Assembly (NCBI GenBank): GCA_949388605.1
Contig: CASKJV010000012.1
Coordinates: forward strand, 1-58,221
Length of the DNA stretch: 58,221 nt
Direction: 5' to 3'
Source of the DNA: an uncultured Clostridia bacterium
GTDB lineage: Bacteria; Bacillota; Clostridia; TANB77; CAG-508
The position numbers and the translations under genes were made by a program. A model generated the notes under the pieces. It ran no database searches. It worked only from the letters and a program-made list of their open reading frames with translations, and was not told where the DNA came from. The number at the start of each line of letters is the position of its first letter. Within the stretch, counting starts at the first letter, position 1. Below are positions 10,269 to 45,770 of the stretch, one piece after another.

Positions 10269-10487
10269 TGTTTTGCTCTTGAAAATGCTTATGTCTACTT
10301 AATTAAATATGCCTATCCTTAAATCCTCTTAATTGAAAAAGAATGTGCTTTTAAAATTAAGTGAAGGTTGTGCGACAGCACATTTATTTAACCTTGACTT
10401 AATTTTATAAAGCACATTAGAATACATTATGTAGGATTTCTTCTATTAACCACTTAATTTATTTTATCCTTTGTAAGTTCAAATTTT

Positions 10488-11108
10488 TCAAAAGTTCTTT
10501 AAATTATACTTTTTATCATATATATTTATATATTCTGGAAATTTCTTTATCCATTTATACAAATCTTGTGTATCGTGAAAAGAATATAATTTATATCCAT
10601 CTTTTGTAGTATATCTCTGCTGCATATTTAAAAAACTTTCAATAAATTTTTGTCCATCCTTTGTTTGTCCTTCTGCACACATATTTAAAAACTTAATGCC
10701 ATTTTTCATTAAATTTTGTATTTTTTCGTGCATGCCTTTTAGTAAATAACTTAATACTAATTTATCTTCTCTATATTCAATATCAATAGCTATCGCTGAA
10801 AACAATAAGTAATATGTTCCTTCTAATTTATATTGTAATAAAGTATCTTTATTTATTTCTGTATCTTCTAATTCATTTATCATAAATTTGTTAAATTGCT
10901 CTTTAGATAATGGTAATAACGTTATCTCTCCTACTATTTTATTTTTATTATTATCCCTTACAAATATATGTATATCTGAATTTTTGTTATCCCATTCAAT
11001 TGTTTGTTCTATTCCTGCTATAGTTGATGGATTTAAATATTCATGTTCTATCTTCCAAACATCTTCAAAATCTTTATTTGTATGTTTAAACTCTACTTGA
11101 TATTTCAT
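10488..11108 (-). CDS. GNAT-like protein, 206 aa
   Basis: The arrangement VRDNNKNKIVGEITLLPL (central strands), AIDIEYREDKLVLSYLLKGM (where a GNAT acetyl-CoA loop should be) and NMCAEGQTKDGQKFIESFLN suggests a divergent acetyltransferase fold. The glycine-rich loop is missing or degenerate (YREDKLVLSYLL), so activity is doubtful. It lies alone between hairpin copy C and a truncated PHP gene remnant. Function unknown. Confidence 0.55.
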   Translation of the reverse strand: MKYQVEFKHTNKDFEDVWKIEHEYLNPSTIAGIEQTIEWDNKNSDIHIFVRDNNKNKIVGEITLLPLSKEQFNKFMINELEDTEINKDTLLQYKLEGTYYLLFSAIAIDIEYREDKLVLSYLLKGMHEKIQNLMKNGIKFLNMCAEGQTKDGQKFIESFLNMQQRYTTKDGYKLYSFHDTQDLYKWIKKFPEYINIYDKKYNLKNF

Positions 11109-31197: not shown

Positions 31198-31506
31198 ATG
31201 TGTAGTTGTAATTGTAATCGTAATTGTAACTGTGAGCGCAATCACAATTGTAACTGTAATCGCGATCGTAATTTGAATTATAATAATTCTTTTTATGAAG
31301 AGTATAGAGTTTCAAATATGAATTGTTCTCCATTTCCTATAAATTATTTATATGGTCATGCTTATACTCCAAATCAAATCATGAGTAAGACTTATGATCC
31401 AGCAACAGGACTTCAAAATGGAAGTATTTTTCCAGAACTTATAAGTCCTTATTGTCCTGGTCAATCAATAGATTTTATAAATTATCTAAGAAATGGAGGA
31501 AATTAA
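31198..31506 (+). CDS. cotJA: Spore coat protein CotJA with Cys/Asn-rich N-terminus, 102 aa
   Basis: The C-terminal half, AYTPNQIMSKTYDPATGLQ then NGSIFPELISPY, matches CotJA. The first 25 residues are a repeat-like Cys-Asn-Arg stretch (CSCNCNRNCNCERN), an unusual extension that could bind metal or cross-link in the coat. AAAAGGAGG precedes the start. First gene of cotJABC, which in Bacillus is made in the mother cell under sigma-E. A CATATAAT lies about 20-30 bp upstream but I cannot define a -35. Confidence 0.85.
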   Translation: MCSCNCNRNCNCERNHNCNCNRDRNLNYNNSFYEEYRVSNMNCSPFPINYLYGHAYTPNQIMSKTYDPATGLQNGSIFPELISPYCPGQSIDFINYLRNGGN

Positions 31507-31507
31507 A

Positions 31508-31786
31508 ATGGCAAAATGTTGTAATAATGGTTGTAATAACCACAATAAAGCTAGTTTATTACATGAAATAATGTCTTTAAACTTTGCAATTAATGATTTA
31601 GTATTATATTTAGACACACATCCAACTGATTCTAGAGCAATAAATATGCATAATGAATATAGCGAAAAAGTAATTTCACTAACAGAACAATATCAAAATT
31701 TATATGGACCATTAACAGTCAATTTTTCTTCAGAAACTTGGGATTGGATTGACGAACCATGGCCTTGGGAAAGGGGTGCTTATTAA
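31508..31786 (+). CDS. cotJB: Spore coat protein CotJB, 92 aa
   Basis: LLHEIMSLNFAINDLVLYLD then THPTDSRAINMHNEY and WDWIDEPWPWERGAY are near-diagnostic for CotJB. The start at 31508 follows GGAGG located at the end of cotJA. An N-terminal CCNNGCNNHN echoes the Cys/Asn-rich tract of CotJA. Its stop overlaps the cotJC start (TAATG), so the operon is translationally coupled. Confidence 0.95.
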   Translation: MAKCCNNGCNNHNKASLLHEIMSLNFAINDLVLYLDTHPTDSRAINMHNEYSEKVISLTEQYQNLYGPLTVNFSSETWDWIDEPWPWERGAY

Positions 31787-31983
31787 TGTACTATTATGTA
31801 AAAAGCTTACAATATCCTATAAATATAAGAAACAGAAATCCACAGTTAGCTAAAAATATTATTTCTCAATATGGTGGTCCAGATGGCGAGCTTGGTGCTT
31901 CACTTAGATATTTATCACAAAGATTTGGTATGCCTGATCAAAAATCAAAAGCAATATTAAATGATATTGGAACTGAAGAATAA
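31786..31983 (+). CDS. cotJC: 5' part of interrupted cotJC, 65 aa
   Basis: Encodes residues 1-65 of the manganese-catalase-like coat protein CotJC (LQYPINIRNRNPQLAKNIIS, QYGGPDGELGASLRYLSQRF, ILNDIGTEE). It breaks off at GTEE, followed at once by TAA contributed by the inserted element. The next expected residues (LAHLEMVG) are found 10.3 kb downstream in the correct frame (42253). The break falls within the EExxH metal-ligand motif, so this half cannot make an active site. Excision of 31975-42252 would restore a 211-residue protein. Confidence 0.95.
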   Translation: MYYYVKSLQYPINIRNRNPQLAKNIISQYGGPDGELGASLRYLSQRFGMPDQKSKAILNDIGTEE

Positions 31984-32003
31984 GTAATAAAATGATGTCA
32001 ATA
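31975..32003 (+). other. attL of the cotJC element
   Basis: Core GAAGAA at 31975-31980, then an 11-nt spacer and the arm ATGATGTCAATA (31992-32003). The same arm at the same distance follows the core at 39985, which identifies it as the element-side (P') recombinase half-site. Confidence 0.8.
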
Positions 32004-32042
32004 TTTAAAATCAATAGTTATAGCCTTAGTAGTGAGCAAAAC

Positions 32043-32071
32043 TTGCACTTTTATGTAAATTGTAGTATAAT
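32043..32071 (+). promoter_or_regulatory. Sigma-A-type promoter of the 80-aa gene
   Basis: TTGCAC, 17-nt spacer, TATAAT. It lies 66 bp before the start at 32137. Confidence 0.7.
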
Positions 32072-32136
32072 GTAAATAGATTCAAGGTTGATATATACAA
32101 CATTTTCATTGCAGTACAGTGGAAGGAGAACACATA

Positions 32137-32379
32137 ATGAAAACAACTTATCAACAATTACAACACGAAAAAGACCCTAATCTCTCATACCTCAGATACA
32201 ACTCTGCTCCCTATAAAGGAACTGAGTTAGAAATCATTTATCGGAAAGCCTATTATGACGGGCTTGATGTAGAACCTGGTAGAAGTTTCCCGTTGGAAAA
32301 GCTCACCGGCGCGAAACGGGCAGCTTATCTTCATGGATATTTCACAGGAGATTATGAGTCGTTATACGCAGATGATTGA
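32137..32379 (+). CDS. Hypothetical protein, 80 aa, atypically G+C-rich
   Basis: The start at 32137 has AAGGAG 8 nt upstream; the longer reading begins inside that site. The protein has YNSAPYKGTELEIIYRKAYY and GAKRAAYLHGYFTGDYESL, soluble and aromatic-rich. Family not recognised. Base composition is clearly higher in G+C than surrounding DNA, which suggests recent acquisition. It has its own strong promoter and terminator, and faces the radical-SAM operon head-on. A substrate role for those enzymes is conceivable but unsupported. Confidence 0.65.
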   Translation: MKTTYQQLQHEKDPNLSYLRYNSAPYKGTELEIIYRKAYYDGLDVEPGRSFPLEKLTGAKRAAYLHGYFTGDYESLYADD

Positions 32380-32380
32380 T

Positions 32381-32426
32381 ATCGGAAAAGTTCCCTGGTG
32401 ACAGTTTACCAGGGAGCTTTTTCGAT
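32381..32426 (+). terminator. Terminator of the 80-aa gene
   Basis: Near-perfect stem with core TCCCTGGT/ACCAGGGA extended by ATCG-AAAAG/CTTTT-CGAT, beginning at the stop codon. Confidence 0.85.
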
Positions 32427-32435
32427 AAGTAAAAA

Positions 32436-32474
32436 AAGTTACTGGCTATATGATTTACATATAGCCAGTAACTT
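32436..32474 (-). terminator. Terminator of the radical-SAM operon
   Basis: Perfect 17-bp stem (AAGTTACTGGCTATATG and its complement) with a 5-nt loop. On the minus strand it ends in a run of seven T, 20 bp past the last radical-SAM stop. Confidence 0.9.
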
Positions 32475-32493
32475 AGCAATAAAATTAATAATT

Positions 32494-33528
32494 TTAAGGA
32501 TTATATTTCAGTAAAATATCTTCATTATCTACCCAACTTCCATTTAGATTTCCATTGGGATGAAATATCATTTCATAAACAATATCACTATTAGCATCCT
32601 TCTCTTTCTTTTGAACTCTCAAATCTGCTGATTCGGAGCAGACAGCGACACCTTTGTAATTATAGATTTCTACATAATAGTAGTATCCTAAAATATTTTT
32701 CTCTGGTTCGAATCTCTTGTCTTTGTCTACTTCTTTCCAAACAGAATTTAGCCTTACTTTATTATCCTGACAATACCGCATTTTTTCAAGATTTATCATT
32801 GTTTTTTCATCGTAATCCATAAGTTCTCTAAAAATCACATTATCAATTCCAAATTTTCTGTAGAATTCTATATAGTCAACCATTCCTGGAACATCATGAA
32901 TTCCCTCTTTTAATAACAAACAACTCAATCTTGGACGAAGACCTTTGTATAAAGCATATGGAATAATAACTGATAAATCCTCATTGGTACAGCCTTTTTC
33001 ACCACATGGATATGGCATAAGTTTTTGGTTTATTGAGTCATCGTAATGAGCTTTACTGATATTTAGATGATCAAACTTTGCATCAATCAAATAATCAATA
33101 ATTCTTTTACCAGCAATTTCTTTTAGTAAAACTGAGCCATTTGTTGTAATAGTTTTTTTCCTAATATTATATTTATTGAGAAGCTTAACTATTCTAACAA
33201 ATCTTGGAGAAATAGTTGGTTCTCCACCTGTAAGTGATACACTTACATTCAGAGGTGCAATTTTAGCAAGAACTTCTTCCAATCTTCTGAAATATTCATC
33301 ATCATCTTCAATTTTTTCTTTTTTATATATTTTGCTTTTATTTTCATACCGAAGCTGTGCAACACAAAATTTGCAATCTGCATTACAATAATCATCTACA
33401 AAAATTGATAAATTACAATTGCCATATACTTTTTTAGGCATATCAAACTGAAAGTCTATAAGTTCTTTATCTTTAATATCAAAATCTGCTTGCCTTGTGT
33501 ATCGAATTTTTTCAAAAGTACTGCTCAT
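32494..33528 (-). CDS. Radical SAM protein, 344 aa
   Basis: The cluster motif is DYCNADCKFCVAQ (CxxxCxxC) near residue 53, the SAM-binding motif is SLTGGEPTISPR (GGEP) near 100, and KTITTNGSVLL follows. Later KFGIDNVIFRELMDY and the C-terminal IFHPNGNLNGSWVDNEDIL are shared in pattern with the next gene and with 45012-45770. No SPASM cysteine cluster is evident. Third gene of a three-gene operon; 14 bp after its neighbour. Reaction unknown. RBS GGGAG. Confidence 0.8.
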   Translation of the reverse strand: MSSTFEKIRYTRQADFDIKDKELIDFQFDMPKKVYGNCNLSIFVDDYCNADCKFCVAQLRYENKSKIYKKEKIEDDDEYFRRLEEVLAKIAPLNVSVSLTGGEPTISPRFVRIVKLLNKYNIRKKTITTNGSVLLKEIAGKRIIDYLIDAKFDHLNISKAHYDDSINQKLMPYPCGEKGCTNEDLSVIIPYALYKGLRPRLSCLLLKEGIHDVPGMVDYIEFYRKFGIDNVIFRELMDYDEKTMINLEKMRYCQDNKVRLNSVWKEVDKDKRFEPEKNILGYYYYVEIYNYKGVAVCSESADLRVQKKEKDANSDIVYEMIFHPNGNLNGSWVDNEDILLKYNP

Positions 33529-33542
33529 AATATTCTCCCTTC

Positions 33543-34526
33543 CTAAAACAATAGTGTCTTAGAAACATCATTCCAATTAGTATTTACTAATCTACCATCT
33601 GCATAAAAAATTAAATCTCTTATAATTTCCGGATTAGCAGTATTTTTTTCTAAATAACATTTTACAAGTTTATCTCTATAATAAAAATGCTTGACATTAT
33701 AATACAATCCATTAATTGTATATGCATATAAAAAAGCCGACCGATGCTCAATAGCATGACAAATTTTCGAAATATCTACAAACTGTTCCTGATAATTCCA
33801 ATATCCATCCTTTTCAGGATCAATTGGAACTGGTTCTCTAAAAATCACCGTATCAATTCCCAATTGTTCATAATGTTGGCAATACTGTAGCATCTGATCT
33901 AAATTGCTCATAAAACTTTTTTGTAAAGTACAACCCATACGCGCTCTCATATTATGTGCATTACAGAACTCAGCAATTTCAGATATTTGCTTTTCTGTTA
34001 AATCACCTTTTGTTTTCATTATACGATAGTTATCTTCTGGTGAAATTGCATGTCGACTAATATTTATATTGTTCAGGAAACCATTTTCATGCATATGCTC
34101 CAAAATAGATTTTCCATCAACAATGTCAAGAAGTCCTGTACCATTAGTGGAAAATGATCTAATTTTGTATCCATATTTATGTATAAGTTTCATAATTTCA
34201 GGTAAGCGTTTAGATTTTGTAGGTTCTCCTCCTGTTATCATGATAGATGGATTAAGTGGTTTTAAATACTGTAGAATGTAATCCAATCTTTTTAAATACT
34301 TCTCGTCATCCATAATTTCTTCTGAACACAAGAAATTGTTCTCATATTTATTCATGCAAAAAGAACAATCAGAATTACAGGCGTTAGTCACGTAAATTGT
34401 AAGCCCCACATTACTGTAAATATCATACATTTGGCCAGCGATTTCCATTTTCTTTATTGTGTATTTTCCTACATCATGAGTTTCTGTTTTGGGACGTCCA
34501 ACTGGTTCAAATTTTATTGTATTCAT
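33543..34526 (-). CDS. Radical SAM protein, 327 aa
   Basis: CxxxCxxC motif in VTNACNSDCSFCMNKYE near 50-60, then IMITGGEPTKSKRLPEIMKL and RSFSTNGTGLL. The second half carries GIDTVIFREPVPIDPEKDGY and ends LIFYADGRLVNTNWNDV. It is a paralogue of the downstream gene. Its start overlaps the upstream radical-SAM stop by 4 bp (ATGA), so the two are coupled. Substrate unknown. Confidence 0.8.
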   Translation of the reverse strand: MNTIKFEPVGRPKTETHDVGKYTIKKMEIAGQMYDIYSNVGLTIYVTNACNSDCSFCMNKYENNFLCSEEIMDDEKYLKRLDYILQYLKPLNPSIMITGGEPTKSKRLPEIMKLIHKYGYKIRSFSTNGTGLLDIVDGKSILEHMHENGFLNNINISRHAISPEDNYRIMKTKGDLTEKQISEIAEFCNAHNMRARMGCTLQKSFMSNLDQMLQYCQHYEQLGIDTVIFREPVPIDPEKDGYWNYQEQFVDISKICHAIEHRSAFLYAYTINGLYYNVKHFYYRDKLVKCYLEKNTANPEIIRDLIFYADGRLVNTNWNDVSKTLLF

Positions 34527-35209
34527 TCTGCTATTCTCCTTTTCTCATAATCACTTCTTGCTACAAGGTCTTTACCAAAACATGTTCCATCACATGCATA
34601 AATAAACCAATCATCAATATTCTGAACAATAACTGGTTTAGAATATCCCTTTTCATTTTCATATTTACCATAACTTTGCAAATAGAAAATATTGGATATT
34701 TCTTTCAAACCAGCCTCTTCTACTAAATCCACAATCCAGTCATCTCCATGACGAAGTCTAACATTTAAAATAATATCAAAATTTGGATTATCTTTTGATA
34801 ACTCGTAAAAATCTTTACATTTTTTTACAATTTCATTATCAATTTGATATAACCAATAATTTACGCTAATTTTAATTATAATAGGAATATTATTGGATTT
34901 TCCAAATTCTACTAATTTATTAAAATGTTCATCAAGTAAAAATCCATTTGTAAGAATAATTACTTTTAAACATCGTCCTGTTTCAACACCATATTGTAAA
35001 AAAGAATACATATCTTTATGTAGTAATGGTTCTCCGCCTTCAATTTGAAGTTCAAAAGGATTTTCTTTTGAATCAATAATTTTTTTGAATTCTGCAAAAC
35101 TCATATATGTACTGTTCTTTGAGCTCGACCACATACAGCAAAATTCACAATCAGCATTACAGCTATTTGTGATATTTATATATTGCCGTATTTTCATTTT
35201 CGTATCCAT
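34523..35209 (-). CDS. Radical SAM protein, compact, 228 aa
   Basis: The start at 35209 is chosen because AAAGGAGGTATTT precedes it and a strong promoter lies at 35292-35320, within the longer open frame. Motifs: NITNSCNADCEFCCMWSS, then FELQIEGGEPLLHKDMYSFL and VIILTNGFLLDE. It is shorter than usual, close to a bare radical-SAM barrel. The end ACDGTCFGKDLVARSDYE has two Cys that might bind a further cluster. First gene of the operon. Confidence 0.8.
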   Translation of the reverse strand: MDTKMKIRQYINITNSCNADCEFCCMWSSSKNSTYMSFAEFKKIIDSKENPFELQIEGGEPLLHKDMYSFLQYGVETGRCLKVIILTNGFLLDEHFNKLVEFGKSNNIPIIIKISVNYWLYQIDNEIVKKCKDFYELSKDNPNFDIILNVRLRHGDDWIVDLVEEAGLKEISNIFYLQSYGKYENEKGYSKPVIVQNIDDWFIYACDGTCFGKDLVARSDYEKRRIAE

Positions 35210-35291
35210 AAATACCTCCTTTAAAATTATTAATTTGTCAATGTACTCACAATGACTTATTGCCAATATAATTCTACAATAAATCGAGCGT

Positions 35292-35320
35292 ATTATATCA
35301 TGGTTTACGTAAAGTTTCAA
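35292..35320 (-). promoter_or_regulatory. Sigma-A-type promoter of the radical-SAM operon
   Basis: On the minus strand TTGAAA, a 17-nt spacer and TATAAT. The spacer CTTTACGTAAACCATGA resembles that of the promoter at 53118. This makes the operon likely active in vegetative cells, before excision. Confidence 0.75.
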
Positions 35321-35431
35321 TGTTTTTTATTAATTTACATAAATTAATTTTCTATTTTATTTATATATATAATAATTTTCTAAATACTATTCAATTTAAT
35401 ATAAAATCTGACAACTTCTATTAAACTAACT

Positions 35432-36970
35432 CTATATCTTTGGAAAAATATTAAGTTCGAATTCAGTTGAATCAGATGTTTTTTTTATACTTTTTTCTCT
35501 TTTTAAATATGTGATTTTGAAAACTAAACTTTTTAATAAAACATTTTTTTCTTCAGCATTTTCCAACTTTTTATATAGTTCCATAATATTTTTTAATTTA
35601 GGTATTTCAATTCTTTCTTTATCAGATTTTAATATAGTTGTATTGTATTCATTTAATCTATTTTCCAAATTTCGAATATTGTTTTTTATCTTTTTCGAAC
35701 GACTAATAAATTCCTCTTTACTATAAATATTATTTTCTAAAAGTTCATATATTTTATTAAGTTTAGAATTTTCTCTTTCTAATAATTTTTGTAATTCAAG
35801 AATATTATTTTCAAGTATTAAATTATTACTAAACTTTAAATTTTCTAAAACTTTATAATCAATAATATAGTTTTGAAAATATATTTGCAAAGCTTCAATT
35901 ACTTTATTTTCAACTATATATAGTTTTGAGCTTATATTATCACATTTTGAATTAGAACACATAAGAACTTCTGGTTTATTATATTTGTTATATGGTCGCC
36001 TTTGCATTGGTTTACCACATTTTTCGCAAAATATAATTCCTACTAGTGGATTTTTAACAATATTATTATGCTTTACTTTTGGAGTATTTTGTTTTCTTTT
36101 TTCTTGCACTAATTCCCAAATTTTATTATCAATAATTGCTTCATGTAATCCATCATAAATTAAAAAATTAGAATTACGTGGTCTAGTAATTATAATTCGT
36201 CCATCTTTTGTCTTCTTTTGTTGTTTCCTTCTATTCCAAACAACTTTACCTATATATGTGGGATTAGACAATATATCTTTAACAGAAGAAGCTGTCCACT
36301 CTTCTGCAATTCTAGGCTTTACTCCCATATTATTTAATTGTTTTACAACTGAATTTATTGTATTATTTTCAATTAAATATAACCTAAAAATTTCTTTTAC
36401 AATACAAGCTTCGTTTCTATCTATTGCTAAACTATAGCCTTTAGAATTTTTTAATTTTATTCTTGTATATCCAAATGGAGGAATATTTCCTACAAATTTG
36501 CCTTCCTGAACTGAAATTTCGCGTCCTCTTTGTAAACGTCTATTAATTGTTTTGTATTCTCTTCTAGACATAAATAACCCAAACTCGAAATACTCTTCAT
36601 CAAATTCGTTATCTGGATCATATGTTTTTACTGGTGTAATAATTTTAGTATGAGAATACTTAAAAGCCTTTAAAACCTTACCTTGATCACTGGTATCACC
36701 ACGAGCAAGTCTTTCTACTTCAACAACTAAAACACCTGTCCATGTTTCATTTTCTACATCTTGTAAAAGTTTCTGCATTTCTTTTCTTTCATTAATTGTT
36801 TCACCACTTACAACTTCTCTATAAATTTTACCAATAGCTAAATTTCGTTTTTGAGCTAAAGTACTTAATATTTTTTCATGTCTTGCTAAAGTCTCACCTT
36901 CTCCATATTTTTCAGCTTCAATATCCTCTCTTGATTTTCTTAAATATATTGCATATGTTTCATTTGGCAT
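35432..36970 (-). CDS. SpoIVCA-like large serine recombinase, 512 aa
   Basis: The N-terminal YAIYLRKSREDIEAEKYGEG has the catalytic Ser near residue 12. YLRKSR-x-D-x-EAE-x-GEGETLARH is the style of the skin-element recombinases SpoIVCA and its clostridial relatives. VVEVERLARGDTSDQGKVL follows, then the recombinase domain (GKFVGNIPPFGYTRIK) and a zinc ribbon (IFCEKCGKPMQRRPYNK, CSNSKCDNIS). A coiled-coil C-terminus ends FELNIFPKI. The start at 36970 has AGAGGGGAAG upstream; the longer frame lacks an RBS. It is the probable enzyme for the attL x attR deletion that rebuilds cotJC. Confidence 0.9.
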   Translation of the reverse strand: MPNETYAIYLRKSREDIEAEKYGEGETLARHEKILSTLAQKRNLAIGKIYREVVSGETINERKEMQKLLQDVENETWTGVLVVEVERLARGDTSDQGKVLKAFKYSHTKIITPVKTYDPDNEFDEEYFEFGLFMSRREYKTINRRLQRGREISVQEGKFVGNIPPFGYTRIKLKNSKGYSLAIDRNEACIVKEIFRLYLIENNTINSVVKQLNNMGVKPRIAEEWTASSVKDILSNPTYIGKVVWNRRKQQKKTKDGRIIITRPRNSNFLIYDGLHEAIIDNKIWELVQEKRKQNTPKVKHNNIVKNPLVGIIFCEKCGKPMQRRPYNKYNKPEVLMCSNSKCDNISSKLYIVENKVIEALQIYFQNYIIDYKVLENLKFSNNLILENNILELQKLLERENSKLNKIYELLENNIYSKEEFISRSKKIKNNIRNLENRLNEYNTTILKSDKERIEIPKLKNIMELYKKLENAEEKNVLLKSLVFKITYLKREKSIKKTSDSTEFELNIFPKI

Positions 36971-37018
36971 ATCATTCTTCCCCTCTATATTTAATAGAAA
37001 TTGCTTAGATTTCATTAT

Positions 37019-37153
37019 TTATATATATTTTTTATTTATTAAGTTAATTATAATGTTATCTATATATTCTTTTTGAGTAGTAATATTCTCAACAATATTA
37101 TCATTATAAAATTTTATAGTAGTTCCTTCTAATTTATATTCTTTTAATATCAT
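37019..37153 (-). CDS. Small recombinase-linked protein, 44 aa
   Basis: Reads MILKEYKLEGTTIKFYNDNI and ends INLINKKYI, with GAGGTGATT as RBS. It lies directly before the recombinase, as the 61-aa gene does before the other serine recombinase. A role as directionality factor is possible but only by position. A CATAAAGT at 37171-37178 resembles a sigma-E -10 box; no convincing -35 is visible. Confidence 0.55.
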   Translation of the reverse strand: MILKEYKLEGTTIKFYNDNIVENITTQKEYIDNIIINLINKKYI

Positions 37154-37199
37154 TTAAATCACCTCTATAAACTTTATGAAAAAAATATGCAAACAGAAT

Positions 37200-37434
37200 T
37201 GAAATTTTCTAAATCACCCAAATTTTATAACTATATTTTATTGAGTTTTTCTTCGCTATCGCTCGAAAATTCCTACAATAGAACCAAAGTAGATGTTATG
37301 ATAATTACAAAATACAAAAATTTACTAAATCGTCCACGTATTTGTTCGAAGCGCCAATTTTGTTGTACAAAATTGTGTGCAAAAATTAGCGAAGCTTTTA
37401 TTTAGTCGGAAGTGCAGAGTACTTTCCTACTAAA
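37200..37434. other. Non-coding, hairpin-rich stretch
   Basis: Contains CAATTTTGT/ACAAAATTG around a 3-nt loop and a long stem ATTTAGTCGGAA...TTTCCTACTAAAT (about 37400-37434). It also has several TTCG-rich segments unlike the surrounding A/T-rich DNA. The open plus frame here (37187-37405) has no RBS or recognisable family. The stretch could encode a small RNA ending at the terminator that follows. Confidence 0.4.
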
Positions 37435-37472
37435 TAAAAAATACTCAAGACTAATTGTCTTGAGTATTTTTT
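37435..37472. terminator. Perfect bidirectional terminator
   Basis: AATACTCAAGAC pairs with GTCTTGAGTATT, with A6 and T6 flanks, loop TAATT. Confidence 0.85.
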
Positions 37473-37560
37473 ATTATTATACTATACATATAATAATTTA
37501 AATTTTATTAAAAAAGTTCAATATGCCTAATCCAATTTATTTGTATCAGTCATTTTCTTC

Positions 37561-37625
37561 TTGATGATATTAATATCTAAAAACAATATTTATAATCTTT
37601 GCTATTGACAATAAAATATTAATTT
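37561..37625 (+). repeat. Relic of an element left end
   Basis: TTGATGATATTAATA, then TTTGCTATTGAC 37 bp after its start and AAAATATTAA, matches 39999-40060 (TTGATGATGTCAATA, TTTGCTATTGAC at the same distance). The core to the left is lost. It marks a third, older module end inside the cotJC element. Confidence 0.55.
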
Positions 37626-38794
37626 TTATTTAGTTTTATCATTAATCGTGCATAATATATTATTGCAATTGAAACGCAAATTAATAATATTTTAAAGTAA
37701 AGCATGTTATTAAGAAAACTAATAGCAAAAAGTATTGTATAACCAATAATTCTAGCAATATTAAGTGAGACTTCAGATATTACTTGATGTTCTGCTAAAT
37801 AATCTTTAGTTATTACTTTATAATTATTAATTATGCTATATCGTTTTTCTTCAGCATTATTAACTAATAATATTAGAAATATGTTATTTATTAAATTATA
37901 TATAATTACAGTTGCTTTATTTATATTAAATAATAGAAGTATAACTCCTAATACAGACATAATAGTACTTATAATTAGTACAGTAGTATTATTTTCTAAT
38001 TTTCTTTGAAATATGTATACAGAAACTATTGAACAAAATGAAAATATGCTTGTTAAAACTCCTAAGCTAATATTAGTTTTAAAAGTAAGTACAATCATTA
38101 TTGTTACTAATGTCTCTAAGAGATAATGAATAATTCCTTCACAGAACATTATTTTATAGAAATCTTTTATTTTTTCCTTTTTAATCTCTTTTAAATATTT
38201 AACAAAACTAGTTAAACTATATTTTTTTGTTTCAGTTAAATCCTTTTCTTTTATTAGTAGCGAAAAAGAAAACTGTATAATAGATAAAATTACTACAACT
38301 GTTGCTACACTTGAAAAAGATGTTAATTCTATAGATGCTCCAAATATAAATGGAAAAATAATCTTTAATGTTTTTGATAACATAGACTTAGTAGAAACAA
38401 ATTTATTCGAAACATCATTTGCATATTCATTTACTAATAAATGACCTGATGACCATAAAAAACCTTGCACAATTCCATAAATAATACCAAGATAAATGTA
38501 ATAATTAACTATGTTTTCTTTTAATATTGAAATTGTTAACACATATATACAATATAAAACAATACCAAACCTAAAAATAGGTACCTGCATTTTATTTTTT
38601 ATAATTTTTCCTAAAGTTAGAAAAGTAAGTACTATAAATATGAAAGACATTATATAAAAAACAGAAATTATTTTATAATCATAATTAGTTAGTGTATAAA
38701 AATAAGCTACCATAAATGTATTAATAAACATATATAATATATTATTTATTAATAAAGATCCCATAAGACCAATAATACTTCGTTTCTTTTCCAT
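37619..38794 (-). CDS. MFS/YqgE-type transporter, 391 aa
   Basis: About 12 hydrophobic segments starting LMGSLLINNILYMFINTFMV, with the central basic loop KEIKKEKIKDFYKIMFCEGI typical of the YQGE family of putative MFS transporters in sporeformers. The sequence GIVQGFLWSSGHLLVNEY is conserved in that family. Substrate unknown. It lies alone in module 2 of the cotJC element, between the relic left end (37561) and a recombinase remnant. Confidence 0.7.
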   Translation of the reverse strand: MEKKRSIIGLMGSLLINNILYMFINTFMVAYFYTLTNYDYKIISVFYIMSFIFIVLTFLTLGKIIKNKMQVPIFRFGIVLYCIYVLTISILKENIVNYYIYLGIIYGIVQGFLWSSGHLLVNEYANDVSNKFVSTKSMLSKTLKIIFPFIFGASIELTSFSSVATVVVILSIIQFSFSLLIKEKDLTETKKYSLTSFVKYLKEIKKEKIKDFYKIMFCEGIIHYLLETLVTIMIVLTFKTNISLGVLTSIFSFCSIVSVYIFQRKLENNTTVLIISTIMSVLGVILLLFNINKATVIIYNLINNIFLILLVNNAEEKRYSIINNYKVITKDYLAEHQVISEVSLNIARIIGYTILFAISFLNNMLYFKILLICVSIAIIYYARLMIKLNKN

Positions 38795-38860
38795 ATTTCG
38801 ACTCCTTCTGTAATTTTATATCATATACTGTTTAAAATTTCTATATTTTAAAGTAAAAAA

Positions 38861-38925
38861 TTAAATTAATTTAGGTATCTTAAGATATATATGTAATTCA
38901 AAATTAGTAAGCACAGAGTCTTTTA
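38861..38925 (-). pseudogene. Remnant of a serine recombinase 3' end
   Basis: The minus frame reads KDSVLTNFELHIYLKIPK, aligning with DSDPSNFELHIYPKIPKY at 40704 and SDSTEFELNIFPKI at the end of the intact recombinase. Only the last ~20 codons remain, with a frame break just upstream. Confidence 0.65.
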
Positions 38926-38999
38926 TAGATTTTTTTTAATATGTAATTCAAGCTTCATCAGCTGACTGCATTTAAGAAAAATTTTGGGTATTAGTATTT

Positions 39000-39857
39000 T
39001 TATATATAGATTATTCTAGCAATTGTAGCTTTAGATTCTTGATTTTTTATTAATTTATAAAAAGAATTATAATTCTCACTTCCTATATTACATATAAAAG
39101 AATTACCTATGGCAGGAACTGTTATTATCATATTATTTTCTCTAGTTAATACTATATGGAATGAACCATATATAGGACTTATTGTATTAATTTTAAAATG
39201 CTGATTAAGATTTATACTGGTATTATAATTTAAAGAAATATCTGTATTACTAAAAATAATATTTTTAAATTCTGTATCATGTATATTAAAAAAATTAAGA
39301 TTTATATTTTGTTCAAAAAAATTATGTATATAAATATTTTTCGTATAAGTTATACTATTAAGAGAAAGATATTCATCCAAATTATACATATCTATTAATT
39401 CCTTTAAAGTATCTGGTTTGCAATATGAATTTAAATATGTGTAGTAATTATTAGTATTTTCAAATTTTAATGCAATTGCTACATTTTCAGAAATATTTTT
39501 TATTTTATGAATATATGCAGTTGTATATATTTCAGCATGGATAAATTCATTAAATTCTGTTAAAGATACTTTATTTATATAATTATCTATTAAATTCTCA
39601 TTAATTTGACTAGAACTAATAGCTTTATAAATATTATTATTAAAATTTATTTCTGAATACTGGTTAGAAAGATTTGAATTATTACACTCAGTATAATCAT
39701 TTATTTTTGAACTTATTTTTATTTCTTTATCAATAACAGTATATTTTAAGTTATCAATTTTTCCTTTTTTTAAAATAATAATATTATTTTTAACTAATAT
39801 TACTATAATAATTACGATAACTAATATAATTAGATAGTAAAATTTTTTCATTATCAT
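39000..39857 (-). CDS. Membrane-anchored extracellular protein, 285 aa
   Basis: An N-terminal KKFYYLIILVIVIIIVILVK is a signal anchor. The rest is polar, Asn-rich and free of membrane segments, so it probably faces outside. Strings such as HIVLTRENNMIITVPAIG suggest a beta-rich fold. No family recognised. Very A+T-rich with few Cys, as expected for exported proteins. It lies just left of the internal att site at 39967. Confidence 0.55.
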   Translation of the reverse strand: MIMKKFYYLIILVIVIIIVILVKNNIIILKKGKIDNLKYTVIDKEIKISSKINDYTECNNSNLSNQYSEINFNNNIYKAISSSQINENLIDNYINKVSLTEFNEFIHAEIYTTAYIHKIKNISENVAIALKFENTNNYYTYLNSYCKPDTLKELIDMYNLDEYLSLNSITYTKNIYIHNFFEQNINLNFFNIHDTEFKNIIFSNTDISLNYNTSINLNQHFKINTISPIYGSFHIVLTRENNMIITVPAIGNSFICNIGSENYNSFYKLIKNQESKATIARIIYI

Positions 39858-39966
39858 TCCTCGCTTTAAATATCTTCCCCTTTCTCTTTTTTAATAAAAA
39901 CATTTTTCAATTATATAGTTATATAAATTGATATTTATATAGCAAAATATAGAATTTTAATTTGAG

Positions 39967-40010
39967 TGACATCATCAGCATAAGGAAGAACTAGCACATT
40001 GATGATGTCA
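39967..40010. other. Internal att site with perfect 11-bp dyad (P-P' hybrid)
   Basis: TGACATCATCA and TGATGATGTCA flank a core GAAGAA (39985-39990). The left arm sits 18 nt before the core as in attR (42235), and the right arm 11 nt after it as in attL. GAAGAACTAGCACAT (15 bp) is identical to attR/cotJC. This is what results when a second element integrates into the attL of a resident one. Confidence 0.75.
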
Positions 40011-40129
40011 ATAGCCAAAGACAGTGATTACAACTTTTGCTATTGACTGTAAAATATTAAATTTTATCTAAAAATCTTTTATATTCTAGCTCTATTTGTT
40101 TTGTATCAGCAACTGGCTTATCCCAGTGT

Positions 40130-40633
40130 TTACCGAAAATATGTATTATAATAATCTAACAATAATTCTATTTTTAACCATTCTTCTTTATTAATTATTT
40201 GTAATAAACCAGCTATTCTATTTACCATAAACTTGTTTAATGTTTTCATATCTTCTTGTGATAATTTTCCTTCGCTATGCATGTCTTCTACTGGTCCATT
40301 TCTAAACAAATAATGTGTTAAAGCAATAGAAATAGTATCTATATTATCTTTATTTAGCAATCTCTCTTTAGAACCTTGATTTAAATTTTTAAATAAATTT
40401 TTGTTAAAATCTTCACTAAAGAATTTTTTTAGAGTATAGTTAATCTGTTTTATGTCCCATTTTTCTCTTTTACTTTTTACTTGTGATTTACTTACATCAT
40501 ATAAATCTGCTATCATGTTGTCTGTGTGTTCTTCAAAAAGTTCTTCTAATTCTTCTTTTGTTATATTATTCCATTCTAGCTTTTCGCCTTTATTTTTTCT
40601 TTCAACTAATTCTTGATATAAATTTTTTTCCAT
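40130..40633 (-). CDS. Hypothetical protein with HTH-like region, 167 aa
   Basis: TKEELEELFEEHTDNMIADL then YDVSKSQVKSKREKWDIK looks like a helix-turn-helix. The rest is helical (ISIALTHYLFRNGPVEDMHS, GLLQIINKEEW). Family not recognised. RBS AAAGGA. It is the first gene of module 3 of the cotJC element, running toward the internal att site. It may be an element regulator, but evidence is weak. Confidence 0.5.
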   Translation of the reverse strand: MEKNLYQELVERKNKGEKLEWNNITKEELEELFEEHTDNMIADLYDVSKSQVKSKREKWDIKQINYTLKKFFSEDFNKNLFKNLNQGSKERLLNKDNIDTISIALTHYLFRNGPVEDMHSEGKLSQEDMKTLNKFMVNRIAGLLQIINKEEWLKIELLLDYYNTYFR

Positions 40634-40703
40634 TTTCTAATCCTTTCTTTTTTCTTATATTACTACAATTTATCTGAATTTTCAACAAATATAATTAGAA
40701 CAT

Positions 40704-41015
40704 TTAATATTTAGGTATTTTAGGATATATATGTAATTCAAAATTACTAGGGTCAGAGTCTTTCTTTATAGCTTTTTCTATTTTTAAATAAGTAACTTTA
40801 GCAATAATGCTTTTTAACAAGATATTTTTATCTTCAGCAGTTTCTAACTTATCATATAAATCAATGATATATTCTAATTTAGGTATCATCATTCCTTTTT
40901 CATTTTGTATTTCATAATTTTTATTTAAGAGTTCATTGTATTCTTTGAATTTACTTTTTAAACTCTCAATATTACCAATTGTACTATTCTTTTTTATAAA
41001 ATTATAATAATACAA
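40704..41015 (-). pseudogene. C-terminal fragment of a serine recombinase, 103 codons
   Basis: IPKLEYIIDLYDKLETAEDK and NILLKSIIAKVTYLKIEKAI align with the C-terminus of the intact recombinase (IPKLKNIMELYKKLENAEEK, NVLLKSLVFKITYLKREKSI). The catalytic and zinc-ribbon domains are gone. It shows that module 3 once had its own recombinase. Confidence 0.85.
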
Positions 41016-41074
41016 TTGACAAAAGAACGAATGTTTAATAATATGTAACCAATAAGAGATGAGGTCGATATTAT

Positions 41075-42091
41075 ATGGATAATAAATTAATTGGAAATGA
41101 AAAAAACTTGTTAATTTACAAAAATGAAGAAGGAAATATAATTGTAGATGCCATATTTAAAGATGAAACATTATGGCTAACACAAAAAGGAATGTCAAAA
41201 GTATTTGATGTGCAAGTACCAGCTATATCTAAACAATTGAAGAATATATTTAATGATGAAGAGTTAGTAAAAGATTCAGTTGTTTCCAAAATGGAAATAA
41301 CTGCAGATGATGGAAAAAGATATAATACAGAAGTATATAACTTGGATGCAATAATAGCAGTTGGATACAGAATAAATTCTAAAAAAGCAACTCAGTTTAG
41401 AATTTGGGCAACAAAAATATTAAAAGAATATATGATAAAAGGTTTTGTATTAAATGATGAAAGATTTATTAAAGGCAATAAGTATGATACTCAATACTTC
41501 GATGAATTACTAGAAAGAATAAAAACAATTAGAGTAAGTGAAAGAATGGCTTATCAAAAAATAACAGATTTATTTATAGCAACAGCAGTTGACTATAATT
41601 CAAATTCAGAAGAGGCATATACATTTTTCAAAATTGTTCAAAACAAATTGCATTATGCCATTTCTGGACATACAGCTGCAGAACTTATTTATAATAGAGC
41701 TGATTCAAATAAAGAACATATGGGACTTACAAATTGGAAAAATAGTCCAGATGGCTTAATATATAAATATGATGTAACAATAGCTAAAAATTACTTAAAT
41801 GAAGAAGAATTAAAAAAATTAAATGATTTAACTAATTTCTTTATTGTGTTTGCTGAAGATGAAACAAGGGAAAGACATATAATGACAATGCAAAATTGGA
41901 TTGATGCAACAGATGATTTATTAAAATTTAGAAGAAAAAAGATACTAGATAATGCAGGTTCTATATCACATAAAGAAGCTATAGAAAAAGCTGAAAATGA
42001 ATACGAAAAATTCAAAGTAAAACAAGATATACAGTACATTTCTAGTATGGATGAAATGTATCAAAGATATTTAAATGAGAATAAAGAATAA
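41075..42091 (+). CDS. RhuM-family protein, 338 aa
   Basis: Begins ENLLIYKNEEGNIIVDAIFK then DETLWLTQKGMSKVFDV, a KilA-N/ANT-like DNA-binding start typical of RhuM (virulence RhuM family). FRIWATKILKEYMIKGFVLN and the Fic/Doc-like C-terminal segment (AISGHTAAELIYNRADSNKE) follow. RhuM genes are common on phages, islands and near restriction systems; their role is unknown. Two iterons follow directly (42103-42138). Confidence 0.85.
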   Translation: MDNKLIGNEKNLLIYKNEEGNIIVDAIFKDETLWLTQKGMSKVFDVQVPAISKQLKNIFNDEELVKDSVVSKMEITADDGKRYNTEVYNLDAIIAVGYRINSKKATQFRIWATKILKEYMIKGFVLNDERFIKGNKYDTQYFDELLERIKTIRVSERMAYQKITDLFIATAVDYNSNSEEAYTFFKIVQNKLHYAISGHTAAELIYNRADSNKEHMGLTNWKNSPDGLIYKYDVTIAKNYLNEEELKKLNDLTNFFIVFAEDETRERHIMTMQNWIDATDDLLKFRRKKILDNAGSISHKEAIEKAENEYEKFKVKQDIQYISSMDEMYQRYLNENKE

Positions 42092-42102
42092 AAATATACA
42101 CA

Positions 42103-42138
42103 AGTTCACTTAGTGTACTAAAGTTCACCGAGTGAACT
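42103..42138. repeat. Two palindromic iterons in the cotJC element
   Basis: AGTTCACTTAGTGTACT (42103) and AGTTCACCGAGTGAACT (42122, a perfect palindrome about its centre). Same consensus as the clusters in the rlmD island. They lie about 110 bp before attR. Confidence 0.7.
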
Positions 42139-42234
42139 TATTAATTTTACAGCCAATAGCACTAAATTTTTATTGACGACTTATCGGCATATAATGCTTT
42201 GTAATGTCTAAAGCCATAACACAACCATTTAAAT

Positions 42235-42258
42235 TGACAACGTCATAGTACCGAAGAA
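42235..42258 (+). other. attR of the cotJC element
   Basis: Left arm TGACAACGTCAT (42235-42246), similar to TGACATCATCAG at 39967, then core GAAGAA (42253-42258), which is already coding sequence of cotJC. Confidence 0.8.
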
Positions 42259-42699
42259 CTAGCACATCTTGAAATGGTTGGTACTTTGGTTCATCAATTA
42301 ACAGATGGAGCAAGTCCTGAAGAATTAGAAAGAGCTGGTATGGGTGCTTATTATACTGATCATGGTTGGGGTGTATACCCTCAAGCTGCTTCTGGATTTC
42401 CTTTTTCTGCTTCAGTATTAGCTGTAAAAGGTGATCCTATTGCTGATTTAACAGAAGATTTAGCAGCCGAGCAAAAAGCTCGTGCAACTTATGAAAAATT
42501 AATTGATTTATGCAAAGATGATAGTGATGTTGTAGATGTATTAAGATATTTAAGAGAACGTGAAGTCGTTCACTTCCAAAGATTTGGAGAAGCATTAAAT
42601 GGAGTTCAAGAAAAATTATATCAAAGAAATAAATTTTATTTGAATAATAATAACAGTAATAATAATAATAGTAATAATTCTTGCAATTGTAAAAATTAG
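42253..42699 (+). CDS. cotJC: 3' part of interrupted cotJC, 148 codons without a start
   Basis: From the core GAA GAA the frame continues LAHLEMVGTLVHQLTDG, then YYTDHGWGVYPQAASGFPFS, DPIADLTEDLAAEQKARATY and REREVVHFQRFGEAL: the rest of the CotJC manganese-catalase-like fold, including the second ExxH. It ends in an Asn-rich tail with a final CNCKN, echoing the Cys/Asn tract of CotJA. There is an internal ATG at 42274 but no RBS, so on its own this half is silent. Joined to 31786-31980 it gives full-length CotJC. Confidence 0.95.
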   Translation, partial: EELAHLEMVGTLVHQLTDGASPEELERAGMGAYYTDHGWGVYPQAASGFPFSASVLAVKGDPIADLTEDLAAEQKARATYEKLIDLCKDDSDVVDVLRYLREREVVHFQRFGEALNGVQEKLYQRNKFYLNNNNSNNNNSNNSCNCKN

Positions 42700-43842: not shown

Positions 43843-44620
43843 TTATCCCAAACTCACATCTAATATCATCATTATCAAAAATCCAATTGTAACACCAATT
43901 GTCCCATATTTGGATAAATGACATATGCTTTGAGATTCGGGAATCAATTCATCGACAACAACATATATCATTGCACCAGCTGCAAAAGCTAATAAATATG
44001 GTAATACTGGCACAACCATACTAGTAAGTAAAATAGTAATTATTGCAGCAATTGGTTCAACTATTCCTGATAGAACACCATAAATAAATGCTCTTGTTTT
44101 TGATACCCCTGTACTTTTAAGTGGCATTGAAATAATTGCTCCTTCCGGAAAATTTTGAACAGCAATTCCTATTGCTAAAGCAAATGCAGCTGCCATAGTA
44201 ATTCCAGAGCCTACAGTTAAACTACTAGCAAAAACAACACCTACAGCCATGCCGTTCTGGTATGTTATGCAATGTTACTGCTAAAATAAGCATTGTTGTT
44301 TTATTAAGTTTAAATTTTTTAATTCCTTTAACTACATTATTTTCTAAATGTGGTACTATTACATCTATTAACATTAAAAAAAATATTCCTAGAATAAATC
44401 CTATAGTAGCAGGTATCCATGCAATTACCCCTTGCTCCTCTGCCATTTCTATTGACGGGATTATTAATGACCATACTGAAGCTGCTATCATAACTCCTGA
44501 AGCAAATCCTAATAATATTTTTTCAACTTTAGGATTTATTTGGTTTCTCATAAAAAAAACCATTGATGCTCCTAATGATGTTCCTATAAAAGGAATGGCA
44601 ATTCCTAATGCTAAATCCAT
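43843..44620 (-). pseudogene. ZIP-family metal transporter, one-base frameshift
   Basis: Two overlapping frames form one ZIP protein of about 258 aa: LALGIAIPFIGTSLGASMVF to LAVTLHNIPE, then MAVGVVFASSLTVGSGI to MMILDVSLG. The metal-binding HNIPEG and the second QNFPEG motif belong to the ZupT/GufA type. One extra G at about 44254 (plus strand) turns HNIPEGMAVG into HNIPERHGCR. The break lies exactly at a metal-site motif. It may be a recent mutation or a sequencing error. Confidence 0.85.
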
Positions 44621-45011: not shown

Positions 45012-45770
45012 TTATTCATTCCAAGAACCATCCAAATAGTCGTCCAATTCCTCATGGCACCAAGTCTTGTTGTAATTTCCATTAGGATAAACTTTTGGCA
45101 CTGTCGGTTCATCAATAATGTTTGTTTCACCATGTATACATTTCTTTATTCTTACTCCTTTATAAAATGTATACATATATGAGCCATTTCTCTGCCATTC
45201 TAAAGTATCCAGCAATTCCCAAATTTCTGCATTTTTGCAGAGTTCCTCAAAATCTGGTGTGAAATACATACTGATGGATCTTCTGAAAAATCCCTCTGTG
45301 TATTCTATAAAGTGTTCCAGCTTTTCCATAGTAAGATCAGCATCACCAGATAACTTGATGTTTATCTTATCTGACCATTTCCGCCAGAAGTCGATTTCCT
45401 CATCACTGTTGACAGTAATCTGTATCGAATCATAGTATGGAATTAACTGGATTATCTTATCCTTAAGAATTCCGTTGGTGCTCATCATGACAAGAAATCC
45501 TTTGCTGTGAACCAATTCAGCAATAGCAATCAATTTGTCTGTTGCCAAAACTGTTGGTTCTCCCCCCAGCAATAGCACTTCCAACTGCTCGTCTGTATGG
45601 CTTCTTATAAGGTTTAGAAACTTATCAATTGTTTCCAGCGAAATTACTTTGTTGGACGTTCTAATGAACTTATCGATACAATGTTTGCACCGATTATTAC
45701 ATATATGTGATGTAACAATGTCCACATGATCCAGTTCGACTCTTCCCATTGGTAATTTAATTTGATCCAT
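45012..45770 (-). CDS. Radical SAM protein, 252 aa, outside the element
   Basis: CxxxCxxC in TSHICNNRCKHCIDKFIRT near 25-35, then EVLLLGGEPTVLATDKLIAI and LVMMSTNGILKD. The C-terminal KVYPNGNYNKTWCHEELDDY matches the pattern of the element's radical-SAM proteins (IFHPNGNLNGSWVDNED). Codon and base use is more G+C-rich than its neighbours, suggesting transfer. RBS GGAGG. Reaction unknown. Confidence 0.8.
   Translation of the reverse strand: MDQIKLPMGRVELDHVDIVTSHICNNRCKHCIDKFIRTSNKVISLETIDKFLNLIRSHTDEQLEVLLLGGEPTVLATDKLIAIAELVHSKGFLVMMSTNGILKDKIIQLIPYYDSIQITVNSDEEIDFWRKWSDKINIKLSGDADLTMEKLEHFIEYTEGFFRRSISMYFTPDFEELCKNAEIWELLDTLEWQRNGSYMYTFYKGVRIKKCIHGETNIIDEPTVPKVYPNGNYNKTWCHEELDDYLDGSWNE

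Follow-up and report, generated by a model that had tools for sequence, protein, structure and literature searches.

The question raised by the stretch of DNA analysed here (the window, 58,221 nucleotides of contig CASKJV010000012.1, assembly GCA_949388605.1, from an uncultured Clostridia bacterium) is what becomes of a sporulation gene, cotJC, whose reading frame is cut in two by a 10,278-bp insert carrying a recombinase gene. CotJC is described as an inner-coat protein (PMC8745062). The source genome, G000, is a 2.13-Mb metagenome-assembled genome (MAG) of 56 contigs with 6.4% estimated contamination, and the window lies on its contig 12. Our comparison with related genomes suggests that the insert consists of two tandem site-specific elements, that their precise excision could restore the gene, and that the same gene is a recurrent target across a family of uncultured Clostridia.

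cotJC is split in frame between two in-phase repeats

The split gene sits in a cotJA-cotJB-cotJC operon, so that the insertion interrupts the coding sequence of a sporulation gene:

31198–31506, plus strand: cotJA (PF11007, E 6.5e-11)
31493–31786, plus strand: cotJB (PF12652, E 1.1e-27)
31786–31983, plus strand: 5' part of cotJC, a reading frame of codons 1–65 and a TAA from the element
42247–42699, plus strand: 3' part of cotJC, a reading frame, with host DNA again from 42259

The left half starts with the ATG at 31786 and runs for 65 codons, ending ...NDIGTEE at 31980 before the TAA. The right half is open from 42247, passes through GAAGAA at 42253–42258, continues as CTAGCACATCTTGAAATG (LAHLEM, the protein after the repeat reading LAHLEMVGTL...) and ends with a stop codon at 42699. 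The GAAGAA repeats at 31975 and 42253 are in the same phase and are spaced by 10,278 bp (42253 – 31975). When these 10,278 bp are removed, the joined cotJC aligns unbroken to 33 uninterrupted loci, with a top identity of 91.7% over 193 aa. The reading frames and this alignment bear out the original prediction that cotJC is interrupted in frame, between ...NDIGTEE and LAHLEM, and that one 10,278-bp deletion between in-phase GAAGAA repeats rebuilds CotJC. It had also been claimed that the break divides the EExxH motif and that neither half can work. The first part needs amending, because the repetition of GAAGAA leaves EELAH readable where the right half begins; the first 65 codons and a start codon are what is missing from that half. 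A second full cotJC was not found in G000, where the sole other match to the Mn-catalase family, a 168-aa protein on contig 50, was rejected as a second cotJC since it is a distant paralogue. An intact second copy beside a decayed split locus was not seen in this genome, and both halves are conserved (see below).

The same codon is cut in related genomes

A search of 76 genomes with PF05067, followed by reading of the junctions, shows this codon of cotJC to be cut in 12 of the 48 genomes of the genus, the window genome included. Both halves lie on one contig, with inserts of 3.7–10.7 kb, in G000, G005, G007, G012, G016, G021, G029, G031 and G039; the halves are on two contigs in G047, and G032 and G008 each have one half with its arm. 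An alignment of six recombinases of the genus led to at least 465 relatives confirmed in named genomes, of which the best 80 were kept (labelled in the style L070–L149). Their record titles all name Clostridia, Clostridium, Clostridiaceae or Eubacteriales, some from wild mice, chicken or goat ileum. Among these 80 best loci cotJC is cut between codons 57 and 69 in 75; four have no cotJC match and in L113 the gene is uninterrupted. Viral contigs give the same picture: a cotJC fragment is present in 18 of the 80 best viral-contig loci, and it is cut at that place in 18 of 18. The original prediction had proposed a search of related genomes for an uninterrupted cotJC and for the same insertion point, and both exist, in the 33 unbroken loci and the 12 genus genomes. 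Judging from these sequences, the interruption is beyond chance, because the same codon and the same arms recur in many genomes.

The insert consists of two tandem elements

Scanning of the window with matrices of the attachment (att) site arms located the following features:

31975–32008, plus strand: attL, core GAAGAA at 31975–31980 and left inner arm (22.3 bits; best chance match in the window 4.8)
39957–40018, plus strand: internal att site, core GAAGAA at 39985–39990, formed by the right arm of element 1 and the left arm of element 2 (left-type 38.3 bits, right-type 15.4)
42225–42258, plus strand: attR, right inner arm and core GAAGAA at 42253–42258 (32.9 bits)
31981–39990, no strand: element 1, 8,010 bp, with an intact recombinase, delimited by attL on one side and the internal att site on the other
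39991–42258, no strand: element 2, 2,268 bp, without an intact recombinase, bounded by the internal att site and attR
35432–37015, minus strand: large serine recombinase (PF00239, PF07508, PF13408; phrog_95 integrase, E 1.2e-96; YokA structure 9dxh, E 2.1e-42)

True ends aside, the next-best scores in the window to those of the internal site are 4.8 for the left type and 9.0 for the right type. The insert had been taken for a single 10.3-kb skin-like element; it is skin-like, but this third att site makes it two elements in tandem. A similar tandem occurs in L260 (genome G438), with a broken recombinase, an open reading frame (ORF) like the 167-aa ORF of element 2, a RhuM-family gene, an attP-like junction and a second element whose recombinase is complete. 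L117, L133 (by sequence the same locus as L260) and L134 likewise have internal sites in which both arms score.

The junctions locate the crossover point. In the left junctions drawn from the 80 best loci the core is GAAGAA at 56, L133 being one base off register with a frame break upstream. At the right junctions the second codon is GAA in 49 of 49, and the first is GAA in 28, AAC in 8, AAA in 6, TAC in 4 and GAC, TAA or AAT in one each. Since the second codon is constant and the first varies, the crossover must fall within the second GAA. The arms point to this codon independently: across 30 loci for which both junctions are available, the left arm agrees with the reverse-complemented right arm at 70% of positions if the comparison is centred on its GA, compared to 18–35% at twelve other offsets. 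The att sites are therefore imperfect inverted arms flanking a short core, as in skin-like elements. A threshold of 16 bits was used in the 80-locus att scan; the best single arm in viral contigs reached 27.8 bits, though some such contigs hold true sites, and single weak arms in viral contigs were excluded from the att counts. With these data we regard the elements and att sites as almost certainly placed as described.

The recombinase is of the SprA/SpoIVCA type, with Resolvase N-terminal, Recombinase and zinc-ribbon domains, in agreement with the earlier claim of a SpoIVCA-like recombinase inside the insert. Its gene may begin at 36970, because homologues begin at residue 16. Among solved structures its best relatives are those of the SPbeta recombinase YokA, by itself and as a fusion with YotN (9dxh, 9dxd); we take YokA and YotN to be SprA and SprB of the spsM system. 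Directly upstream lies a 44-aa ORF whose relatives precede the recombinase in most loci searched (64 matches in ~116 loci and the window, duplicates included), often with a stretch resembling an intrinsic terminator ahead of it, as judged by eye. This ORF is a candidate directionality factor.

Two further observations concern relatives of the recombinase. L085, L104 and L147 are close relatives whose stretches hold neither a cotJC fragment nor a recognised att arm, reflecting either another target or short contigs. In L266 (MT835739.1), a human-gut phage record, an attP-like inverted repeat with core AACGAA at ~4580–4636 lies right behind a 47%-identical recombinase.

cotJC as an insertion hotspot

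Overall, cotJC is cut at about six positions. Besides the codon used in the window, cuts occur near codon 36 in G153 and G142, at codon 79 in G036, at codon 103 in L077, L084, L128, L130, L137 and L138, at codon 118 in G002 and at codon 136 in G015 and L096. The codon-79 insert (L048–L050) is an apparently complete ~40-kb phage with terminase, head and tape-measure genes, and its integrase is 44% identical to that of the window. In 17 of the 80 best loci there is a second cut downstream, where the right-hand piece ends early, at codon 100–147, away from any contig end; L081 and L144, in which the piece stops at a contig end, were excluded from this count. The next cotJC piece lies within the same locus in 7 of the 17 (L077, L084, L096, L128, L130, L137 and L138). 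In G084 cotJC is found in four pieces on three contigs. Of 66 family genomes, picked from those with a match, 32 have a full-length cotJC in one frame and 34 do not, the latter mixing elements, frame breaks and contig ends.

Other contents of the insert

The remaining recognised features of the two elements are:

32119–32379, plus strand: 86-aa ORF, 81% identical to its counterpart at the corresponding position of the G021 element (matching neither Pfam nor PHROG)
32494–33528, 33543–34526 and 34523–35320, minus strand: three radical SAM genes, cargo (PF04055 in all three)
37019–37153, minus strand: 44-aa ORF directly upstream of the recombinase, candidate directionality factor, conserved in related elements
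37619–38794, minus strand: cargo ORF, 391 aa (no Pfam match)
39000–39857, minus strand: cargo ORF, 285 aa (no Pfam match)
40130–40633, minus strand: 167-aa ORF, also in the tandem locus L260 at 10332–10835 (likeness by eye)
40704–41015, minus strand: C-terminal remnant of a second recombinase, 103 aa (78% identical to the recombinase of G005 over 98 aa)
41075–42091, plus strand: RhuM-family gene, recurrent cargo (PF13310, E 2.4e-98)

No phage structural genes were recognised in the window element. RhuM-family genes recur in the window, L047, L096, L260, G007, G016 and G021, with at least two recombinase types (that of the window, site A, and that of the codon-118 site of G002). The 10.7-kb element between the cotJC halves of L041 (G039) carries V-type ATPase cargo (V_ATPase_I and two ATP-synt_ab), an odd load for a gene-splitting element. 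Outside the insert, the window ORF at 45012–45770 appears radical SAM-like by its CxxxCxxC motif, as judged by eye.

Is the split gene kept and can it be restored?

The halves of split cotJC genes have median ratios of nonsynonymous to synonymous differences (pN/pS) of 0.243 for the right half (37 sequences) and 0.186 for the left (59), compared to 0.183 and 0.201 in intact genes (24 each). These values come from full-length, stop-free halves only, with 32 right and 7 left split loci dropped (cut again, truncated, frame-shifted or viral). Neutral simulation gave a pN/pS of 0.93 and stop-free copies in 11 of 500. Against its near relatives the right half has pN 0.05–0.08 and pS 0.30–0.49. In G000 both sigK (231-aa frame) and spoIVA (502-aa frame) are uninterrupted. 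Among the 31 genomes tested, G004 and G053 lack a cotJC match, a spoIVA match and a strong sigK match, and G055 has sigK and no spoIVA match. As a separate observation, sigK matches come in two pieces in G005:C34, G050:C31, G048:C26 and C35, and G001:C5 and C29, with frame breaks in some and perhaps insertions or contig ends in others.

We propose that codon 65 of cotJC is occupied by two site-specific elements in tandem, both from a single large-serine-recombinase family. Their recombinase would be switched to excision by a directionality factor, for which the 44-aa ORF in front is the candidate. The GA of the second GAA in attL would recombine with that in attR, or do so in two steps via the internal site, so that either one segment of 10,278 bp or two circles (8,010 and 2,268 bp) would be released and the normal CotJC frame restored. 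Excision would be timed to sporulation and occur in the mother cell; losing the elements there would cost nothing, since the mother-cell chromosome is not inherited. The original prediction likewise held that cotJC is switched on by DNA deletion during sporulation. Its skin-like element and precise excision fit the conserved att sites, the intact recombinase, the conserved halves, the uninterrupted sigK and spoIVA and the lack of a second full cotJC in G000, and such a restoration of cotJC is very probably possible. The mother-cell timing, in contrast, is drawn by analogy with skin, SPbeta in spsM, gin and yin, and we are cautiously inclined to accept it. The explanation as a whole appears reasonably probable.

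Several results weigh against this proposal. The role of the 44-aa ORF is guessed from its position, no PHROG family matches it, and no firm sporulation promoter motif was found before it or before the cotJ operon. No free circle or joined copy was found: the attP pattern matched 21 of 390 family genomes, 19 of them attR-type and two attP-type, one of the latter being the tandem junction of G438 and the other lying in G496, and in viral contigs it had no exact match. G002 (89% complete) has a split cotJC and no spoIVA match. Too little time may have passed since insertion for decay to show, and the low pN/pS may reflect time before insertion. After four duplicate loci were dropped, distances between recombinases and those between cotJC right halves were uncorrelated (r 0.002, p 0.48, 35 loci), and those for left halves correlated weakly (r 0.247, p 0.02, 49 loci). 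Domestication of the element, with recombinase and cotJC inherited together, is not supported by these values; since the distances barely track each other, the elements seem to move between hosts and look horizontally mobile rather than domesticated.

Such mobility would also suit an ordinary mobile element, phage-descended or phage-related, that uses cotJC DNA as attB, with excision not tied to sporulation and with cotJC off and tolerated in carriers. In favour of this explanation are the cotJC cuts at the shared position in 18 of the 80 viral-contig loci, the attP-like site adjoining the recombinase in MT835739.1 and the lack of an established sporulation promoter. However, the halves remain open and conserved although interruption is very common, sigK is retained in carriers, as is spoIVA in all but a few of those tested, and the known relatives, SPbeta in spsM and gin in gerE, are described as excising in sporulation (PMC5595907, PMC10747680). 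We therefore consider it rather unlikely. A dead relic, in which element 1 could no longer excise and cotJC would be a pseudogene, might be suspected from the terminal attL arm of the window, which at 22.3 bits scores below the internal left-type arm at 38.3, and from the fact that element 2 holds a recombinase remnant only. The recombinase frame of element 1 is nevertheless complete with all three domains, and both halves of cotJC are open and conserved relative to near relatives, with the pN and pS given above, which makes a relic very improbable. The contig number and estimated contamination of G000 might raise the thought of a chimeric assembly, but the chance of this is close to nil, because the same junction and arms recur in dozens of assemblies from different samples. 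Sporulation-timed excision of tandem elements is thus the explanation that we prefer.

Frame breaks at CGG codons

A lead separate from the cotJC elements came from frame breaks. Distinct adjacent frame breaks in cotJC of non-viral loci are +1 shifts with CGG at the break in 17 of 17, and the reading of these breaks as cotJC decay was then dropped. By eye, the extra C precedes a glycine codon, and dropping it leaves GGN. Such breaks occur in cotJC of L035, L036, L053–L063, L244 and L246 and in the G031 recombinase. In L070–L149, 48 of 153 in-frame CGG codons near an ORF end give access to a +1 extension of 80 codons or more, compared to 3.6% for all codons and 14.8% for AGG, the next; viral contigs show this contrast only weakly (496 of 2371, 21%, versus 13% for all codons). 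A ZIP transporter in the window (43843–44620, minus strand) has a CGG with its C at 44254, two pieces matching both ends of the Zip family, and an uninterrupted frame in three relatives. ARAGORN, run on 34 tRNA matches in G000, gave only the Arg anticodons TCT, ACG and CCT, and tRNA-Arg(CCG) is absent among these matches. From the +1 breaks and these anticodons, CGG looks unassigned, which hints at ribosomes slipping +1 to GGN; nothing clearly reporting this was found in the literature searched.

Relation to known systems and meaning

The closest parallel is SPbeta in spsM of Bacillus subtilis (SprA/YokA, with the factor SprB/YotN), whose recombinase is of the same family and is the best solved relative. 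There a host sporulation gene is rebuilt by precise excision, as proposed here for cotJC. Unlike SPbeta, the window insert targets cotJC, has no recognised phage structural genes and consists of two tandem elements, and its candidate directionality factor is unrelated in sequence to SprB/YotN as far as tested (no PHROG match). The skin element in sigK of Bacillus subtilis and Clostridioides difficile likewise interrupts a gene of a spore former and encodes a serine recombinase, but sigK is uninterrupted in G000, and a structural coat protein rather than a regulator would be switched on. The gin element in gerE of Bacillus cereus ATCC10987 (GirC, GirX) shares a serine recombinase, a small target gene and the lack of recognised phage genes; its direct repeat is given as 9 bp, compared to 6 bp in the window, and it is described from one strain, as a single element of 28.6 kb with three recombinase genes, whereas the cotJC elements are small, tandem and multiple and occur in many species (PMC5595907). 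Elements also lie in yabG (yin) and spoVFB (vfbin), sporulation genes of Clostridium and Bacillus; yin is described as unique to one strain, whereas use of the cotJC site extends through an entire family of uncultured Clostridia (PMC10747680). Interrupted sporulation genes, namely sigK, spsM, spoVFB, gerE and yabG, are presented as single cases in the same source. An interruption of cotJC was not reported in titles or abstract openings of the open-access literature searched, which is not proof of its absence there.

Across this family of uncultured gut Clostridia, we tentatively suggest, in a proposal that could well prove too broad, that cotJC may be a DNA-spliced gene, cut by several serine-recombinase systems at about six sites, often two per gene and sometimes in tandem, whose three or four pieces would be joined by successive deletions in each sporulating mother cell. 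A coat gene that serves as a hotspot throughout a family, where insertions are tandem as well as multiple and phage relatives use the same site, amounts to a large series of natural replicates. They could help to show why sporulation genes attract mobile DNA and whether it is developmental excision that renders these insertions harmless, and they supply a collection of recombinases whose att sites are well defined.

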